Origin: Sialis fuliginosa
Lineage: Eukaryota > Arthropoda > Insecta > Megaloptera > Sialidae
NCBI GenBank assembly: GCA_961205875.1
Contig: OY540812.1
Span: forward strand, 3,844,001-3,908,000
Reading direction: 5' to 3'
Length of the DNA: 64,000 bases
Part shown: positions 4,230-61,440 of the stretch, in pieces
How positions within the stretch are numbered: position 1 is the stretch's first letter
Layout: every line of letters begins with the position of its first letter
Translations under genes and position numbers: made by a program
Notes under the pieces: generated by a model
Databases searched by the model: none
Seen by the model: the letters and a program-made list of their open reading frames with translations, nothing else
What the model was told of the DNA's origin: nothing

Positions 4230-4707
4230 AATATCGGTATATGGAGAACCAAACATGACTTTCATGTTCTTTAATATCTAATTTGAGGATGGTTTTTAGC
4301 CCTTTTATAGCTTTTCAGGCACGTACAAATAATAAATGTCCCTTAGGTTCAATTAAACTATAAATGTACCAAGTCTTATCAAAATTAGTGGGATAATATT
4401 CGCAACATTCACTTTTTAGACGATGAAAATTACAAAATTTCGAATATTTATAAAACCCCTAATCCGATTAGCACCAAAATCAATAGGTCTGGAGTACTCA
4501 CTGAGACAAAAATTTTCCCCAAAAATAATTCAGATCGGTGTATTTTTACAGTAGTTATCGTGAACGAAAGAAAATTCTACATCCAGACACACGCACAGCC
4601 GCCATGCGGAAATCAACTTTTCTTTACGTTTTGAAATTAGTATAATCAGAATCTGCTCTTATCTCGAACACTATTTTTCTTTCAGAACATGGAAGTAAAA
4701 TGGATTG
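4230..4707 (-). repeat. Dispersed repeat ('GCCGCCATGC' family), copy 2
   Basis: Inverted copy of 2386-2930. It carries 'catgactttcatgttcttt', 'gcacgtacaaataataaatg', 'aatccgattagcacc' and 'cacagccgccatgcgg'. It contains an internal segment (about 4425-4570) that copy 1 lacks but 50700-51290 has, so copy 1 is internally deleted. Confidence 0.75.
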
Positions 4708-15141: not shown

Positions 15142-15830
15142 TTCTGATGTAAAATTTTAATTGAAAATTTAATGTTGAAATAGAAAATCAATTTTAAGAT
15201 ACATATCTACAAAGTTGCAAATAAAATAATTCTACAATTGTGTTCAAATGTATCAAAAGAGTCATTCCATTTATAATCATCAAATTTATTAAAATATAGA
15301 AGTTGCACTATTTTTAATTTTGATGAAAGTTTAATCAGTTGTTATTATACTTATTAGATAGCAGAAACTGTACTTAGAAAAATTTTAATGGCCATAGTTC
15401 GGGGGTGGTGACCGTTTTACCCTCTTAAGGTATGAAGATTTCGTCGATTTTCAACGTTTTTTCAACTCGCTATAGCACGCGTTCTAATAAAGCAATTACA
15501 ACGAGCTTAATGTCATTTGAAAGACTAAAGAATCTAGTTTCAATTGATCTAGCACAATTTAAAGTTTAAATTATTTTTTTGTAGATAGAGGCTTTTCAAA
15601 TTTATTAATAAAATTGTCATTTTTTCTATTTTTCGAAATTTATTGTGGCTCTAAGGTTAAACTGAGAAAGCTATAATTATGTGTAAGTTATGTTCATTTA
15701 TAGTACTCAGTACCCACAAAAAATCAGCTTGATTGATGCACATCTTTTATTAAAAAAATTTAGTTAAATATCGCAAAAATCACGAAAACACCAAAATCAG
15801 CTGTTTTCGAAGCAAAAAAAAGTTATGTGG

Positions 15831-16650
15831 GGGACGAGATAAAATTCTGAATTTTTTTTTACAAATGCTCTAAATAGTTATCTTTGAAGGCCTTATAGAT
15901 TCGTTTTGTTATTTTCATTTTTATAGCAACCAGAATTTTTTTTTAAATTTAAAAAAATACGAAAACTTCAAAAACGGTTATTTTTAAACATAATACAAAA
16001 ATATGTTGGGCACGAGATAGAATTCTGAATTTTTTTTTACAAATGCTCTAAATAGTTATCTTTGAAGGCCTTAATGATTCGTTTTGTTATTTTCATTTTT
16101 ATAGCAACCAGAATTTTTTTTTAAATTGAAAAAAATACGAAAACTTCAAAAACGGTTATTTTTAAACATAATACAAAAATATGTTGGGCACGAGATAGAA
16201 TTCTGAATTTTTTTTTACAAATGCTCTAAATAGTTATCTTTGATGGCCTTATAGATTCGTTTTGTTATTTTCATTTTTATAGCAACCAGAATTATTTTTT
16301 TTATTTAAAAAAATACGAAAACTTCAAAAACGGTCATTTTTAAACATAATACAAAAATATGTTGGGCACGAGATAGAATTCTGAATTTTTTTTTACAAAT
16401 GCTCTAAATAGTTATCTTTGAAGGCCTTAATGATTCGTTTTGTTATTTTCATTTTTATAGCAACCAGAATTTTTTTTTAAATTGAAAAAAATACGAAAAC
16501 TTCAAAAACAGCTATTTTTTAAACAATACAAAAATATGTTGGGCACGAGATAGAATTCTGAATTTTTTTAATAATTGCTTTAAGTAATTAACTTTAAAGG
16601 CCAATTGGCTTTTTCTTGTTATTTTCATTTTTCTAGTCACCAGACTTTTT
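15831..16650 (+). repeat. Left-arm tandem array, ~178-bp unit x5
   Basis: Units begin 'gggcacgagatag' (or variant) at 15831, 16008, 16186, 16364 and 16541, spaced 177-178 bases. Each carries 'aaatgctctaaatagttatc', 'attcgttttgttattttcat', 'atagcaaccagaa' and 'cgaaaacttcaaaaac'. The fifth is more diverged. Variants (for example 'ttaatgattcg' versus 'ttatagattcg') alternate in similar order in the opposite arm. Confidence 0.92.
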
Positions 16651-17065
16651 TTAAATCCTTAAAAGTGTAAAAACTCAGATATTGTACTAATCAATACTGA
16701 AGAGAATCTAAATTAACAAATCTTACACTTAATAATAGTATTTACTATTTCGGATTGAGTTTGATATTTTTTCAACTTTTTGATCAATTTCATTTTTTCT
16801 CTTTGATAGGTAAAGGTAGTTTTTTAATTACAACAGGAGATTCATTCAAAACAGCACAAACTTGGTTGATTTATCAAATACAGGGTTCAAATATTTCATC
16901 CCTGATATAGTAAATAATTAATTTTTTGGACATCACGACAATATTCATAATGAAAAGAGATATTTATAAAAACATATAATATTAAACCTTTCACAGAAGA
17001 ATAATAAGTATACTTCAAAATCAATTTAACAATTAATTTATTTGTATGCTTTAACATCATAAATA

Positions 17066-17091
17066 TAATAATAATAATAATAATAATAATA
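17066..17091. repeat. (AAT)n microsatellite in the foldback loop
   Basis: About eight ATA/AAT units in the single-stranded loop between the arms. A 95-residue minus-strand frame across it is low-complexity. Confidence 0.85.
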
Positions 17092-17144
17092 TAACACATA
17101 ATTTTTTTTTGTTTATTTTCGAAAATACATGATTTAAAAAAAAT

Positions 17145-17960
17145 CTGGTGACTAGAAAAATGAAAATAACAAGAAAAAGCCAATTGGCCTTTAAAGTTAA
17201 TTACTTAAAGCAATTATAAAAAAAAATTCAGAATTCTATCTCGTGCCCAACATATTTTTGTATTGTTTAAAAAATAGCTGTTTTTGAAGTTTTCGTATTT
17301 TTTTAAATTTAAATAAAAAATTCTGGTTGCTATAAAAATGAAAATAACAAAACGAATCTATAAGGCCATCAAAGATAACTATTTAGAGCATTTGTAAAAA
17401 AAAATTCAGAATTCTATCTCGTGCCCAACATATTTTTGTATTATGTTTAAAAATAACCGTTTTTGAAGTTTTCGTATTTTTTTCAATTTAAAAAAAAATT
17501 CTGGTTGCTATAAAAATGAAAATAACAAAACGAATCATTAAGGCCTTCAAAGATAACTATTTAGAGCATTTGTAAAAAAAAATTCAGAATTCTATCTCGT
17601 GCCCAGCATATTTTTGTATTATGTTTAAAAATGACCGTTTTTGAAGTTTTCGTATTTTTTTTAAATAAAAAAAATAATTCTGGTTGCTATAAAAATGAAA
17701 ATAACAAAACGAATCATTAAGGCCTTCAAAGATAACTATTTAGAGCATTTGTAAAAAAAAATTCAGAATTCTATCTCGTGCCCAACATATTTTTGTATTA
17801 TGTTTAAAAATAACCGTTTTTGAAGTTTTCGTATTTTTTTAAATTTAAAAAAAAATTCTGGTTGCTATAAAAATGAAAATAACAAAACGAATCTATAAGG
17901 CTTTCAAAGATAACTATTTAGAGCATTTGTAAAAAAAAATTCAGAATTTTATCTCGTCCC
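17145..17960 (-). repeat. Right-arm tandem array, mirror of the left
   Basis: Inverted units with 'tctatctcgtgccc' near 17240, 17417, 17595, 17771 and the outermost variant 'atctcgtcccc' near 17951. Same spacing and nearly the same unit variants as the left array. Confidence 0.92.
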
Positions 17961-18894
17961 CCACATAACTTTTTTTTGCTTCGAAAACAGTTGATTTTGG
18001 TGTTTTCGTGATTTTTGCGATATTTAACTAAATTTTTTTAATAAAAGATGTGCATCAATCAAGCTGATTTTTTGTGGGTACTGAGTACTATAAATGAACA
18101 TAACTTACACATAATTAGAGCTTTCTCAATTTAACCTTAGAGCCACAATAAATTTCGAAAAATAGAAAAAATGACAATTTTATTAATAAATTTGAAAAGC
18201 CTCTATCTACAAAAAAAATAATTTAAACTTTAAATTGTGCTAGATCAATTGAAACTAGATTCTTTAGTCTTTCAAATGACATTAAGCTCGTTGTAATTGC
18301 TTTATTAGAACGCGTGCTATAGCGAGTTGAAAAAACGTTGAAAATCGACGAAATCTTCATACCTTAAGAGGGTAAAACGGTCACCACCCCCGAACTATGG
18401 TCATTAAAATTTTTCTAAGTACAGTTTCTGCTATCTAATAAGTATAATAACAACTGATTAAACTTTCATCAAAATTAAAAATGGTGCAACTTCAGCACCT
18501 TGATGATTTTATATGGAATGACCCAAAAGCATTAATGTAAAACGAAGTATATAGTAATTTGAAAGAGACAATCTAAAGTTTAATATTACATGAACCGTAT
18601 ATCATTGTGGAGAACGCCGCAGTGCTGCAGAAATTATACCTTATATGCAAGAACCGACTGCAGAACTTTTATAATGTGCATTCCTGCCAACTTTCTTTCA
18701 CACCGTGTGATTCTTTTTCTACAAATATATTCTATGCAAGATATACTGTGGCTCAATTATCAATTTATCTACTGCAAATTTATTTTAGGTAAAATGTAAA
18801 AAAAGTAAGATTTTCATGATTTTTACTTTCTTATTTTATTTTATTTTTGTTTTTACATTCATAAAAAAGTCTTGAGGCTTCCGCGGTGATCTTG

Positions 18895-38997: not shown

Positions 38998-40268
38998 CAA
39001 TTATATTTTGCTTCCTCGCAATATCGAAGATACGAGAAGCTTTGTGATCGTTTCAGATTGAGACAAAAAAAATGTTCTCCGAATTCAAAATTTTAAATTG
39101 ATTTATCCGTTTCACGTCAAGACAAACAGTTTTCGTTCCGTGTTTGTCTGTCTGTCCGCCCGTCAATTTAAATTTCTTAATAATAGCCGAAGGAGGTTAC
39201 GAAGGTCTTCGGGCATTAGATAGTCTTAAAGATAATGGTGTAAGCTATATTTTAAAAAAAACTGGAGTCTCCTCGATCGCCCCAAGCTGACATATTAACT
39301 ATTCAACTTATTTGTTAAATTTTCAATTTAAATTTCTTAATAATAGCCGAAGGAGGTTACGAAGGTCTTCGGGCATTAGATAGTCTTAAAGATAATGGTG
39401 TAAGCTATATTTAAAAAAAAAACTGGAGTCTCCTCGATCGCCCCAAGCTGACATATTAACTATTCAACTTATTTGTTAAATTTTCAATTTAAATTTCTTA
39501 ATAATAGCCGAAGGAGGTTACGAAGGTCTTCAGGCATTAGATAGTCTTCAAGATAATGGTGTAAGCTATATTTTAAAAAAAACTGGAGTCTCCTCGATCG
39601 CCCCAAGCTGACATATTAACTATTCAACTTATTTGTTAAATTTTCAATTTAAATTTCATAATAATAGCCAAAGGAGGTTACAAAGGTCTTCGGGCATTAG
39701 ATAGTCTTAAAGATAATGGTGTAAGCTATATTTTAAAAAAAAACTAGAGTCTCCTCGATCGCCCCAAGCTGACATATTAACTATTCAACTTATTTGTTAA
39801 ATTTTCAATTTAAATTTCTTAATAATAGCCGAAGGAGGTTACGAAGGTCTTCGGGCATTAGATAGTCTTAAAGATAATGGTGTAAGCTATATTTTAAAAA
39901 AAAACTGGAGTCTCCTCGATCGCCCCAAGCTGACATATTAACTATTCAACTTATTTGTTAAATTTTCAAACCGATTTTGAACCGATATTATTGAAACTTG
40001 ATCGGATGGTTGGATCTAGCTTGAGGACGGTCCCATTTCAAAATCATCAAAATCGTATGTAAGGGGGAGGGGTGACACCCCAAAATATTTATTTTTTCAA
40101 GATATCTCAAGAACGACACATGTTACGTGAAAATTGTATAGAATATTTTTTCCATTCCAGGCAATTTATATAAACACTATCGGTTTTTATTTAAATTGTT
40201 AAGTAATTAACTACCTTTGGTCAATTTAGCACGAGGAAGCAGTGTGCATTTACTTGGCAGATGTTTTT
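38998..40268 (+). mobile_element. CTTCCTCG/CATCTGCC element carrying a tandem array
   Basis: Begins CTTCCTCGCAATATCGAAG and ends 'gtgcatttacttggcagatg', both as in 26602-27261 (opposite orientation). Non-array parts are 38998-39162 and 39966-40268. The region between, where other copies have ordinary internal sequence, is occupied by five 160-bp units. The array therefore arose in, or was carried by, this element. Confidence 0.8.
39163..39965 (+). repeat. Five-copy 160-bp tandem array with exon-like frame
   Basis: Units start 39163, 39323, 39484, 39644 and 39805 and differ by only a few bases. Each contains an open stretch AEGGYEGLRALDSLKDNG followed by about 16 residues and TGA. It is preceded by 'cttaataatag', which resembles an intron end. 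Units 1 and 3 keep the frame; units 2, 4 and 5 shift in the oligo-A run (9-10 instead of 8 A). Unit 4 also has Glu-to-Lys changes and unit 3 an Arg-to-Gln. The peptide is not one I recognise. It may be a captured last exon; independent translation is unlikely. Confidence 0.9.
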
Positions 40269-50699: not shown

Positions 50700-51290
50700 C
50701 TAATGTCCAAAACATAATACACATTCGTAGAACAACTAATTAGACAATCTGAATCACAGATCTGAATTTAGTTGCATTTGTTTCCAAGGCAACATGAATT
50801 AATGACATATTAATTAGTATTTAAAATTCAAATTTTGAGGGTGTTTTTCACCCCTTCAATGGCTGTTTAGGCACGTACAAATAATAAATGTCCCTTAGGT
50901 TCAATTGAACTACAAATGTACCAAGTCTTATCAAAATTAGTGAGATAATACTCGCAATGTTCGCTTTTTAGACGAAAAAAGTTACAAAATTTCAAATATT
51001 TCCAAAACCCCTAATCCGATTAGCACCAAAATCAATAGGTCTGAAGTACTCACTGAGACAAATATTTTCCCCAAAAATATTTCAGATCGATGCATTTTTA
51101 CAGTAGTTTTCGTGAACGAAACAAAATTCTACATCCTGACACACAGACACACGCACAGCCGCCATGCGGAAATTAACTTTTCTTTACGTTTTGAAGCTAG
51201 TACAATCAGAATTTGTCATTTTCTCGGACACGATTTTTCGATGGTATTACAATACTTCCATTTCTTTCAGAACATGGAAGTAATATAATA
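50700..51290 (-). repeat. Dispersed repeat ('GCCGCCATGC' family), longest copy
   Basis: Collinear with the inverse of 2386-2930 and same-sense with 4230-4707: 'aatgtccaaaacataatac', 'taggcacgtacaaataat', 'cagccgccatgcggaaatt' and 'tcagaacatggaagta'. It retains the segment 50960-51130 missing from copy 1, so is the best template for a consensus. Confidence 0.8.
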
Positions 51291-58865: not shown

Positions 58866-59570
58866 TTACAAATTTCTGTACCCTCTGTAAGGATCATTCG
58901 GGTGGAATCCTTGGAAGTAAACCCTGTCTTCAATCTTATCCGGAACAGTGTGTACTTGAAAACTGGCCGACTCGTGTTTTTCGCTAGCGAATAGTTTCCT
59001 CAGTGTTACCATACCAGCAATCAGCAATGCCATTTTACTGGCTAATAAAGCATGCCCTGCCAGAACGGCAAGGGTTTTTATAGCCAGAGGTCCGACAAAA
59101 CCACATAAGACCAAAAGAGCCATCACGTAAAACGGGGCTGACTTCTTTTCTGCCTTCTTCTTATGTAATTCTTCAATATGACCTCTCATCTCGACGCCAG
59201 TTTCATCTTCGAAGGAAGAATCGACACTGTTGAAGTCCACTTTGACGGTATGAGTTTCAGCGAATTTTTTCAACGCTCTTGAAAATCTTTTATCAGGATC
59301 TGTTTCCAAATTTTGAACGAAACCTTCAAGGTTTTCTTCGTTGTTTTTCACTAAAGAAACTCCATTGAACAATGTGATGTTTTTCAGCACCGCCCTTTCG
59401 ACAGCTGCTACTGCTTTGTTCTTTAAACAATAAGAAGGATCACTTTGACCTTTAGCACAATCGTCAAACATTCGTTGGATGACCATAAACTCACTACTGG
59501 ACCACCATGATGAAGCATTGCAAGAACTCAGAGCAAATAATATAATAAACACTGTTGTATTAGACATCAT
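58866..59570 (-). CDS. Osiris-family protein (DUF1676)
   Basis: A 234-residue secreted or membrane protein of the insect-only Osiris family, whose members are expressed in cuticle-forming epithelia and linked to cuticle and trafficking roles. Residues 1-20 form a signal peptide. Two cysteines, C38 and C48 (DDCAKGQSDPSYC), match the paired-cysteine region at the start of DUF1676. The segment AVLKNITLFNGVSLVKN (about 60-76) is the typical middle. A basic stretch KKKAEKK (137-143) precedes a hydrophobic region, about 146-190, with GP at 160-161, probably one or two membrane passes. The C-terminus is short: FHPNDPYRGYRNL, without an evident AQxLAY-type motif found in many Osiris proteins. Length is in the family's range. 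ATG-ATG start; I took the first. One exon, ending TAA. Which Osiris paralogue it is cannot be decided. Confidence 0.92.
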   Translation of the reverse strand: MMSNTTVFIILFALSSCNASSWWSSSEFMVIQRMFDDCAKGQSDPSYCLKNKAVAAVERAVLKNITLFNGVSLVKNNEENLEGFVQNLETDPDKRFSRALKKFAETHTVKVDFNSVDSSFEDETGVEMRGHIEELHKKKAEKKSAPFYVMALLVLCGFVGPLAIKTLAVLAGHALLASKMALLIAGMVTLRKLFASEKHESASFQVHTVPDKIEDRVYFQGFHPNDPYRGYRNL

Positions 59571-59610
59571 TGTTGATGTTATGATATGAAACGTTTGAAG
59601 AACTTTAAGA

Positions 59611-59655
59611 GAATGATTTGGAATATGTTTGACGCAGCGTTTAAATATATTTAAG
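59611..59655 (-). promoter_or_regulatory. Candidate core promoter of the Osiris gene
   Basis: On the minus strand, AAATATATTTAAA (59643-59655 region) lies about 35 bases before TCATTC (59611-59616), an arthropod Inr-like sequence. That would give a 5' UTR of about 45 bases. The TATA lies within a near-palindrome, 'gcagcgtttaaatatattta' then 'agctgc' (59634-59659). Confidence 0.45.
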
Positions 59656-59659
59656 CTGC

Positions 59660-61440
59660 ACTAGTTAAATAGGTAAATAGGAATTAATAAACAGTAACTT
59701 TACTTATTAAAACACGCGAGATGCGTATATCGATTCGCGCCAGTGGGTTTTTTAGTTTCTTTGCTATTTTAAAAAATACAATCAATTATGCGTCTGCTTT
59801 TGTTAAATTTTTATAGCGTAAGTACATGCTATTAAAAATATAATTTTTGGGTTATTATAGTTTTTCTTTATAGTCTACTTAATTCTATTAATTCGAAAAT
59901 GTTAACTCTTGCTTTTTATGGAAATGAAATAGTGAAAATGTGTACTACAATTCTTAAAACATATATCAATATTTTAAGGACATGATAGTTGAAACTATTA
60001 AAAATAAAAAAAATTTATTACATTTAAAAAATCGTATAGTATAGATTTGTTTATAGTGTCTTAAAAGTTTTTTTATGGATATCAGGAGTTGTTTTAGTGT
60101 GTAGCTGTAGCTTGTTTCTGCAGTTCAAAAAATGAAAACTGCAGTTGTAAAAGTTATTTTGTGTAGTTGAAAAATTGCTAGTAGACAAAAAAAATATGAA
60201 CAAAAAAAAAGGTATTTGCAGTTGAAAAATATTCTTAAAATAAACCCTGATGGATATACAATGATACATATAATGAATTGTCAAGAATAAAAGAAGAACA
60301 ATAATTTATATTTAGATTGCTAAAATTAACATTTATATTTATACAGATAAGTTATTTTGTATCCATTTTTATCATTATATATGAAATAGTAAAGTATTGT
60401 AAAGCCGATGTTTTTCGAATTCAAGATTCTGATGAAAATATCAATTTTTACCTTCTCTGAATCCTTTCTATTGTCAGTCTGTCTTTCTGTAGACGCTGTA
60501 ACGACAAAACATAGGATGATATTTTATCTAAATGATCAAAAAACATATTTTTATATTTTTTAATTATTTTTGAAACAGTGCGATTTAGAATAAATATTTT
60601 TGATAAAAATTGTAAAGAATATTATTATTTATAACTGTTGTAACAAAATTTTTTTTATTTTAAAGAAATAATCAATTTTATTTTATTTTATCTGAAATGG
60701 TTGATAATATGCAGAATTTTTTTATATAATAATAGAAATAGGTTGGGAACGTTATTTTCTATATTATATGTTCTATTCATTTTTTTATATTTTTTTTCTG
60801 TAAACTATAAAGATTTATATTATATGTAGATACATTGTACAATTGTACATACACAATATTATGTATAAGAAAGTTTTACGGCACCCCTGACAATTTTTTT
60901 AAACATATTCTTATTATTTTTAATACGTATCTTATATTATTTTACAAGAATACTTTTTTAAACTTAATATTTTCGAATTAATTTTTTCAATTAACAAGGC
61001 AATCACTGTCCATCTTCCACACGCACCTGTGTTGTCAGTGTTCAAAGTTTCGTTTTCCGTTGGAAAAGGGTTAAAAGATCCACCTGACCTTCAAAATGTG
61101 ATTCAAGCAGAAATGATTAGTGGCAATTAAAAATTTAATAATTCGTTGATGTTAAACCGTGTAACTAAATTGGTATAAGTGATTCTAAGTGTTTCACCCA
61201 AATTTAATTAGTTCTAATAACATATTTTAAAATACATACATTTTTAATGTAGACATTAATTAATTTTTTATGTCGTGTATATTTTTTACATCGGTTTCTC
61301 TTGCTTTATTTTTATTAATATTTATGTGTATATAGTCTATTTAATTTTCTGTAAAAAATTTTTTATTTTATTTTTTATTGTTGAAGTAGGTATAAGGTTG
61401 CCAGAATATGTTCTCTTTTTGATCATTGATTTTTCTTTTT
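59660..61440. other. Intergenic; dispersed-repeat relic
   Basis: AT-rich. A decayed gtatatgaaatatacat-family copy is at 60375-60500. A mixed patch at 61005-61090 ('ccatcttccacacgcacc') may be unique. A 77-residue minus frame at 60051-60284 was not recognised. Confidence 0.45.

Follow-up and report, generated by a model that had tools for sequence, protein, structure and literature searches.

The element and its family

The window analysed here is a 64-kb stretch of the Sialis fuliginosa genome (C4:3844001-3908000), and the searches described below covered the whole genome of 392 Mb in 20 contigs. At positions 15259-18524 the window holds a palindrome of 3.27 kb, which is a real, non-autonomous DNA transposon of the foldback type. 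Two inverted arms of ~1.4 kb each make up most of the element; they match each other in blocks (I1, 609 nt at 95%; I7, 299 nt at 97%; I16, 95 nt at 98%), and each carries 4.7 copies of a 178-bp tandem unit on its side of a unique middle of ~0.47 kb. A foldback element with inverted arms of this length and five units in each had been proposed from the sequence alone (the original prediction), and both features were recovered, with five unit anchors on each side. The palindrome had been placed at 15260-18523, correctly except that the element extends one base further at each end; the borders used here were set by alignments of copies together with 4-bp target-site duplications. For a 301-bp query across the left border, the best 40 of 410 candidate places were scored (identity 97-100%), and the alignments of copies other than the window's own started at query base 43-60, mostly 58-60, at or near window position 15259. 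The left border is therefore a real element end.

The window copy was shown to be one of a large non-coding family of more than 100 copies with termini G(A/G)GTCATTCCAT and 4-bp duplications. Its two tips differ and are called A (left) and B (right) below. Exact A tips (AGTCATTCCATTTATAATCATCAA and a one-base variant) occurred 123 times and exact B tips (GGTCATTCCATATAAAATCATC) 146 times, in keeping with the predicted existence of other copies with the same ends; reversed control patterns of both tips had 0 matches in the same genome. For pairing, 80 of the 100 A tips listed were taken together with every one of the 100 listed B tips (180 of the 269 in all); this yielded 78 facing pairs, namely 68 A-B, 10 B-B and 0 A-A, and left 24 tips single. 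The A-B elements were 2.4-4.1 kb long, except for two that measured 0.4-0.6 kb and a single 5.2-kb copy, with steps of ~178 bp between many copies. Of the B-B copies, one measured 0.5 kb, six 1.9 kb, two 2.6-2.9 kb and one 7.2 kb. We assembled 32 elements with their flanks, 24 of the 68 A-B and 8 of the 10 B-B. The A-B sample comprised the window copy, the two short copies, the 5.2-kb copy and 20 copies from contigs C1 and C2, these last taken in the order listed; five further C1/C2 copies with an A end were left out of it. With long inverted arms, dispersed tips, their facing pairs and target-site duplications in 24/24 assembled A-B copies, the assignment to foldback-type mobile elements was borne out.

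A 4-bp direct repeat lay directly outside G(A)GTCATTCC...GGAATGACCC in all 24 assembled A-B elements, and likewise in two A-B elements assembled later (2/2), compared with a 4-bp match in 22/552 pairings of the wrong-partner control. The duplications comprised 17 different 4-mers among the 24 copies. The base before the repeat was C in 14/24 (P ~2e-6) and the base after it G in 13/24 (P ~5e-6), relative to the base frequencies of the window, so that insertion prefers C-NNNN-G targets. Because the element starts with G and ends with C, insertion at such a target gives the look of a 6-bp duplication. The CAAAAG originally read as a 6-bp duplication is thus a 4-bp duplication, AAAA; a 6-bp reading fits 7/24 assembled A-B elements. 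This low fraction also rules out Polinton/Maverick, at which an AG start and 6 bp had hinted, and the absence of TTAA from all 24 duplications does not fit piggyBac. Duplication length sets the family apart from Galileo and the P superfamily (7 bp) and from Tetris and Mutator-like elements (8-10 bp), and the proposed distinction from Drosophila FB (9 bp) stands as far as this length is concerned.

Table 1. Parts of the window copy (positions in the window).
Feature	Position	Strand	Basis or remark
Left target-site duplication AAAA	15255..15258	.	Sequence; 4-bp rule from 24/24 assembled A-B copies
A-type tip (GAGTCATTCCATTTATAATCATCAAATTTATTAAAATATAG)	15259..15299	+	Arm-specific across the 22 A-B copies compared
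Left outer arm	15300..15821	+	No left- or right-specific variants detected
Left tandem array, 178-bp units	15822..16657	+	5 anchors: 15822, 16000, 16178, 16356, 16533
Unique middle	16658..17130	.	Best 40 of 91 genome candidates scored, 94-100% identity; orientation flipped in two copies
Right tandem array, 178-bp units	17131..17969	-	5 anchors: 17969, 17791, 17612, 17434, 17256
Right outer arm	17970..18495	-	Arm comparison
B-type tip (GGGTCATTCCATATAAAATCATCAAGGTG on minus strand)	18496..18524	-	Tip matches in genome
Right target-site duplication AAAA	18525..18528	.	Sequence; duplication survey of assembled copies

Tips, arms and tandem arrays

The tips and the arms behaved differently when the left and right ends of 22 A-B elements were compared. 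Within the first 39 columns, 17 split left from right with a frequency difference >0.8, whereas among the 155 variable columns between base 60 and base 540 the largest left/right frequency difference was 0.18. Columns 558-566 were dropped, since the difference there came from trimming the arms at 555 bases, the left arms being 9 bases longer. Beyond the tips, no left- or right-specific variant was found in these 22 elements. On a tree of the 44 arms the left/right label changed 17 times, compared with a mean of 15.0 (standard deviation 1.7) for shuffled labels. The column frequencies and these random-like label changes rule out separate left-arm and right-arm lineages beyond the tips.

The two arms of one element were at the same time, on average, closer to each other than to the arms of other elements. 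The mean tree distance within an element was 0.0104, compared with 0.0209 when arms were re-paired (0/2000 permutations), and the opposite arm of the same element was the nearest neighbour for 12.8 of the 44 arms, where 1.0 was expected. Median distances were 0.73% between an element's own left and right arms, 1.88% between left arms and 1.66% between right arms of different elements. Private substitutions shared by both arms of one of the 22 elements numbered 14, spread over 6 elements, and those in a single arm 70, over 17 elements; the divergent copy C1_33295347 supplied 4 of the former and 30 of the latter.

Tandem arrays were present in 22/24 assembled A-B copies, with 2-18 anchors per arm, and the two short A-B copies (368 and 563 bp) had no unit at all and still had 4-bp duplications. 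In the 22 array-bearing elements the left arm held 3-18 anchors and the right arm 2-11 (r = -0.32, with one 18-unit outlier). Numbers were equal in 3/22 copies and unequal in 19/22, which rules out equal array length as a rule; five and five occurred in 2/22, the window copy included. The tandem units thus grow and shrink separately in each arm, and the five mirrored by five in the window is a coincidence of a single copy.

The original prediction also held that the unit variants run in nearly the same order in both arms of the window copy. This was true of the first units (L1-R1 differ by 1) and less so further in, where L2-R2, L3-R3 and L4-R4 differed by 6, 9 and 5 and L2 differed from R3 by 1. 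Units R2 and R4 were mosaic-like, with apparent joins of different left units. In the comparison that had been suggested, cross-arm pairs of the same number averaged 5.3 differences for units 1-4 of the window copy, while the averages inside an arm were 9.5 (left) and 11.5 (right). Among 189 complete units, first units formed a class apart (5.5 differences among themselves versus 13.8 to later units). For the 145 later units, nearest relatives were found 25.4 times within the unit's own arm (4.7 expected) and 11.9 times in the opposite arm of its element (2.6 expected); in other elements they were found 87.3 times in the arm of the same side (67.3 expected) and 20.3 times in that of the opposite side (70.4 expected). 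These counts indicate that arrays grow within an arm and also pass between arms, and that recent amplification carries whole arms. No unit column had a left/right frequency difference >0.28.

Inverted middles, mirrored flanks and a candidate transposase

Among 40 scored places of the middle, 34 had a listed A tip, and the middle was oriented as in the window in 32 of these and reversed in 2; the other 6 places had no listed A tip. Of the 24 assembled A-B copies, 15 had the middle in the window orientation. The two reversed-middle copies (C6:8492254 and C6:17763344) were 99.8% identical and flanked by different duplications, TGAT versus ACAG, and the flipped form has therefore transposed. A single crossing-over between the arms probably flipped the middle, and the flipped element moved later.

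Two of the B-B copies, C6:15413393 and C3:32285483, had two B tips, no A tip and no duplication (ATAA versus TTAT). The flanks of the C6 copy mirrored each other over the whole 3,083 bp compared (97.1%) and those of the C3 copy over 1,618 bp (98.4%), and the two copies were 99.6-99.7% alike in two stretches compared. The outer left arm of the C3 copy was an inverted copy of its outer right arm. The right flank of the A-B element C1:30091077 matched the C6 flank over 1,991 bp (98.2-98.5%) and the C3 flank over 725 bp (99.6%). On the simplest reading, the left arm in C3/C6 would have been recopied from the right arm, and the copying would have run on into the adjoining DNA. The repeat flanking these palindromes holds a 99-bp satellite. 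At the same loci (L075-L078; C3:32.28 Mb and C6:15.41 Mb), large palindromes carry 99-bp-period repeats on both sides of the B-B element.

The 1.9-kb B-B class, from one copy tested, combined 1.1 kb from the right end of the 7.2-kb copy with an inverted repeat of that copy's last 0.8 kb (96-97%). It sits inside a mobile repeat with ends GTGGAGAGCC, two copies of which share 2,225 bp at 99.9% and nothing beyond; for this class, insertion into a palindromic site is an alternative. The 2.2-kb mobile repeat with these ends (L079, L063, L080; L081, L062, L082) carries the mirrored piece of the foldback family, and TA adjoins both of its ends in two copies compared.

The 7.2-kb B-B copy (L039, C3:3036130-3043357; 7,228 bp), with B tips at both ends, holds overlapping minus-strand reading frames of 854 and 616 amino acids and was the sole near-complete copy among the scored candidates (the best 71 of 255 and 53 of 97). 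Both window arms matched its right end over 505-535 bp, compared with ~474 bp for its own terminal repeat; window arms that reach past this repeat suggest that the arms were mirrored from one element end. No inverted repeat >12 bp was found between the stretches flanking the L039 reading frames, which gave no sign that these frames are nested in inverted repeats of their own. One of four C14 stretches, the fragment L090, has no matching arm and was therefore discarded as an additional coding copy sharing these ends. A repeat of another interspersed family, at 2561-2772, 4293-4575 and 50772-51127 of the window, also adjoins the transposase frame of L039 (L039 5604-5965; 85-89% identity).

The L039 protein was 42-47% identical to a relative with an intact frame of 1551 codons (1525 amino acids from the ATG), which occurred at eleven places, all with this frame length and with scores that were the same or almost so. 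Three 5.9-kb elements compared in full (L083, L084, L085) were 99.97-99.98% alike and had 533-bp terminal repeats with ends TAGCCCAGTCATATTAGG and, read by eye, 3-bp duplications (TAT, ACA and TGT in 3/3 copies), for which a 2-bp TA reading is also possible; judging from these sequences, the 5.9-kb transposon was apparently active recently. The acidic motifs IIDGG / VVFDGY / DDAD / EDxDxLV / GCDTTSA are kept between the L039-type and 5.9-kb families, and by eye we take them to resemble those of XPG/PIN nucleases. The NCBIfam PIN model gave a weak match to the transposase-like protein (E 0.004, below its cut-off), and Pfam and PDB returned weak unrelated matches only (best E 0.032 and 0.0085, respectively). 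No THAP match was found in Pfam at E up to 1 in either L039 reading frame or in the 1525-amino-acid relative, which speaks against a P-type (THAP) transposase, provided that L039 is the partner. AcademX transposons make 3- or 4-bp duplications, a length that is related to an encoded nuclease (PMC10045372), and the corresponding lengths are 4 bp here and, by eye, 3 bp in the 5.9-kb relatives. The data fit Academ(X), of which the family is a putative member.

Elsewhere in the window, five copies of a 161-bp unit, 97% alike, lie at 39163-39969; this unit formed short arrays at many places in the genome (best 40 of 931 candidates scored) and is a dispersed satellite. Another tandem array (unit ~163 bp, 4.6 copies) lies at 653-1367. 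A reading frame of 264 amino acids at 58866-59660 has a DUF1676 domain (E 5.8e-23), which we take to be that of the insect Osiris family.

Probable arm exchange, rival readings and relatives

As a whole, the data are best explained by a non-autonomous foldback-type transposon whose arms continue to exchange sequence, a reading to which we assign a probability of roughly 0.75. Its copies would be moved by cut-and-paste in trans by an Academ-like transposase such as that of L039. One end of an element would have been mirrored to give the first pair of arms, and, judging from their sequences, the arms may since have continued to exchange sequence inside elements by conversion or crossing-over. 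Such exchange would make the arms alike while leaving the tips alone, would have flipped the middle (one event, two copies) and, by copying past the tip into the adjoining DNA, would have produced two B tips and mirrored flanks (one or two events). The simplest reason why the tips mostly stay A and B is that they lie beyond the reach of an exchange that stops with the homology. A more specific version is tentative: in an Academ-related lineage with internally repetitive arms, the arms might be kept alike by repeated copying within elements from which the terminal ~39 bp escape, and overshoot might mirror kilobases and thereby make large palindromes, some of which would enclose satellite DNA or a different mobile repeat within matching ends that are new.

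The original prediction had offered either an array that predates the mirroring or conversion between the arms, and both seem to be involved. The shared array and the lack of left/right variants beyond the tips suit a mirrored ancestor, while private variants in both arms, the nearness of an element's own arms and the inversion indicate exchange; arrays also change alone in each arm. The role of an arm transcript as dsRNA and a source of siRNAs, also put forward there, is hypothetical.

A number of observations weigh against the preferred explanation. Within a three-member subfamily and within a pair, like arms were nearest to each other, left with left and right with right (left-left and right-right 0.0-0.4%, versus 0.8-1.3% between an element's own arms), and the exchange was therefore episodic. 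Among the 145 later units, the same arm of other elements was nearest 87 times and the other arm 20 times. Three assembled copies keep only a 31-bp end of the middle, reversed, and six have no middle match (four array-bearing and two short); the first three and the four array-bearing ones were left out of the orientation count. The repeat adjoining the C6/C3 palindromes occurs commonly, and there is a related stretch close to the C1 copy on its left side too, so that the overshoot represents one or two events. Mirrored flanks of at least ~60 bp were found in 8/10 B-B copies, L039 and C5:33140359 having ~20 bp only, and the majority of B-B copies fall in the single 1.9-kb class. L039 is rearranged, frameshifted, ~94% like the window copy in its arms and the sole near-complete copy among those scored, so that its protein is only a candidate for the enzyme that mobilised the A-B copies; its reading frames might have come by nesting. 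Mirroring from one end rests on the comparison with L039, whose left arm may be cut short by rearrangement.

Some of these observations would also follow if there were no continuing exchange and all copies descended from one recent mirrored ancestor, whose arms have not had time to diverge. Such an ancestor alone would give the absence of left/right-specific variants beyond the tips, and it accommodates the like-with-like arms of the subfamily and the pair. We nevertheless consider it unlikely, given the 14 private variants that a single element among the 22 carries in its left and its right arm alike, the 12.8 of 44 arms with their own partner nearest, the existence of the inverted middle and the two B-B copies with long mirrored flanks. 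Those B-B palindromes would be uninformative on arm copying if they were insertions into targets that were already palindromic. The 1.9-kb copies are flanked by a mobile repeat that has ends of its own, GTGGAGAGCC, and the junction AATT is readable as a 4-bp duplication; C6:15413393 and C3:32285483, however, lack both a duplication and an A tip, and one inverted copying event explains both the inverted outer arm of the C3 copy and its near-identity to the C6 copy. Insertion into palindromic targets is thus a possibility of some weight, though a doubtful one.

The remaining two readings carry far less weight. Long palindromes are a known assembly hazard, and foldback reads could in principle produce such structures, yet the chance that the family is an artefact of this kind appears negligible: the 24 assembled loci have 4-bp duplications of 17 different sequences, the outer arms of the window copy differ by 13 substitutions and 10 gap columns over 563, and the mirrored flanks differ by 1.6-2.9%, where foldback reads would mirror almost perfectly. 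The arrays might also have been selected as extra transposase-binding sites, the likeness of the arms then coming from selection on both ends and not from exchange, as the tandem repeats of Galileo hold extra binding sites (PMC3688188). Unit numbers of 2-18 that are unequal in 19/22 copies, and unit-free copies of 368 and 563 bp that also have 4-bp duplications, speak against this, and selection on binding sites would not place private variants in both arms; we regard it as very improbable.

Inverted arms with tandem repeats are also a feature of Drosophila FB, which differs from this family in its duplications (9 bp as given in the original prediction, 4 bp here). Galileo, of the P superfamily in Drosophila, shares more, as far as the available passages describe it (PMC3573991, PMC4168063, PMC2775673, PMC3688188): long terminal inverted repeats, with direct tandem repeats inside them in some subfamilies; unequal repeat numbers at either end of a single copy; nearly complete copies that are fewer than those with two arms and no transposase; recruitment of inner sequence by the arms; and two D. 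buzzatii copies with arms >99% alike within a copy and ~7% different between copies. It differs in its 7-bp duplications and P-type transposase; the duplications here are 4 bp long and the protein is another one, provided that L039 is the partner. Galileo's tandem units are described in those passages for one D. mojavensis subfamily (~210 bp) and one D. willistoni copy (~140 bp), whereas arrays are present here in 22/24 assembled A-B copies. Tetris of Drosophila virilis, in the passages available (PMC4079207), likewise has a flanking domain, AT-rich tandem units of ~220 bp in variable number and a middle, and its encoding partner was not found, a further likeness; it differs in its 8-10 bp duplications and three structurally complete copies. 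In Tetris the units expanded into satellite arrays. AcademX is similar in its 3- or 4-bp duplications (4 bp here, 3 bp in the related 5.9-kb family), which are related to an encoded nuclease; a candidate nuclease-like stretch was read by eye here. The passage of PMC10045372 is silent on long internally repetitive arms. Long, internally repetitive terminal repeats are found in unrelated transposon groups, according to two of these reports (PMC3573991, PMC3688188). A literature search with few subscription papers within reach found no precedent for internally repetitive arms in an Academ-related family. The kind of element is thus already known from Galileo and Tetris, while the lineage and the contrast between tips and arms look new, and the family seems to belong to another transposon lineage than the foldback elements of fruit flies.

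For the window itself, the feature is an ordinary mobile-element insertion. How two arms stay alike is hard to see from few copies, and the family, with more than 100 copies, a sharp border between tip and arm, an inversion in two transposed copies and mirrored flanks of kilobases, makes both arm exchange and the birth of palindromes measurable. It links internally repetitive arms to an apparently Academ-like transposase and serves as a natural record of arm exchange.

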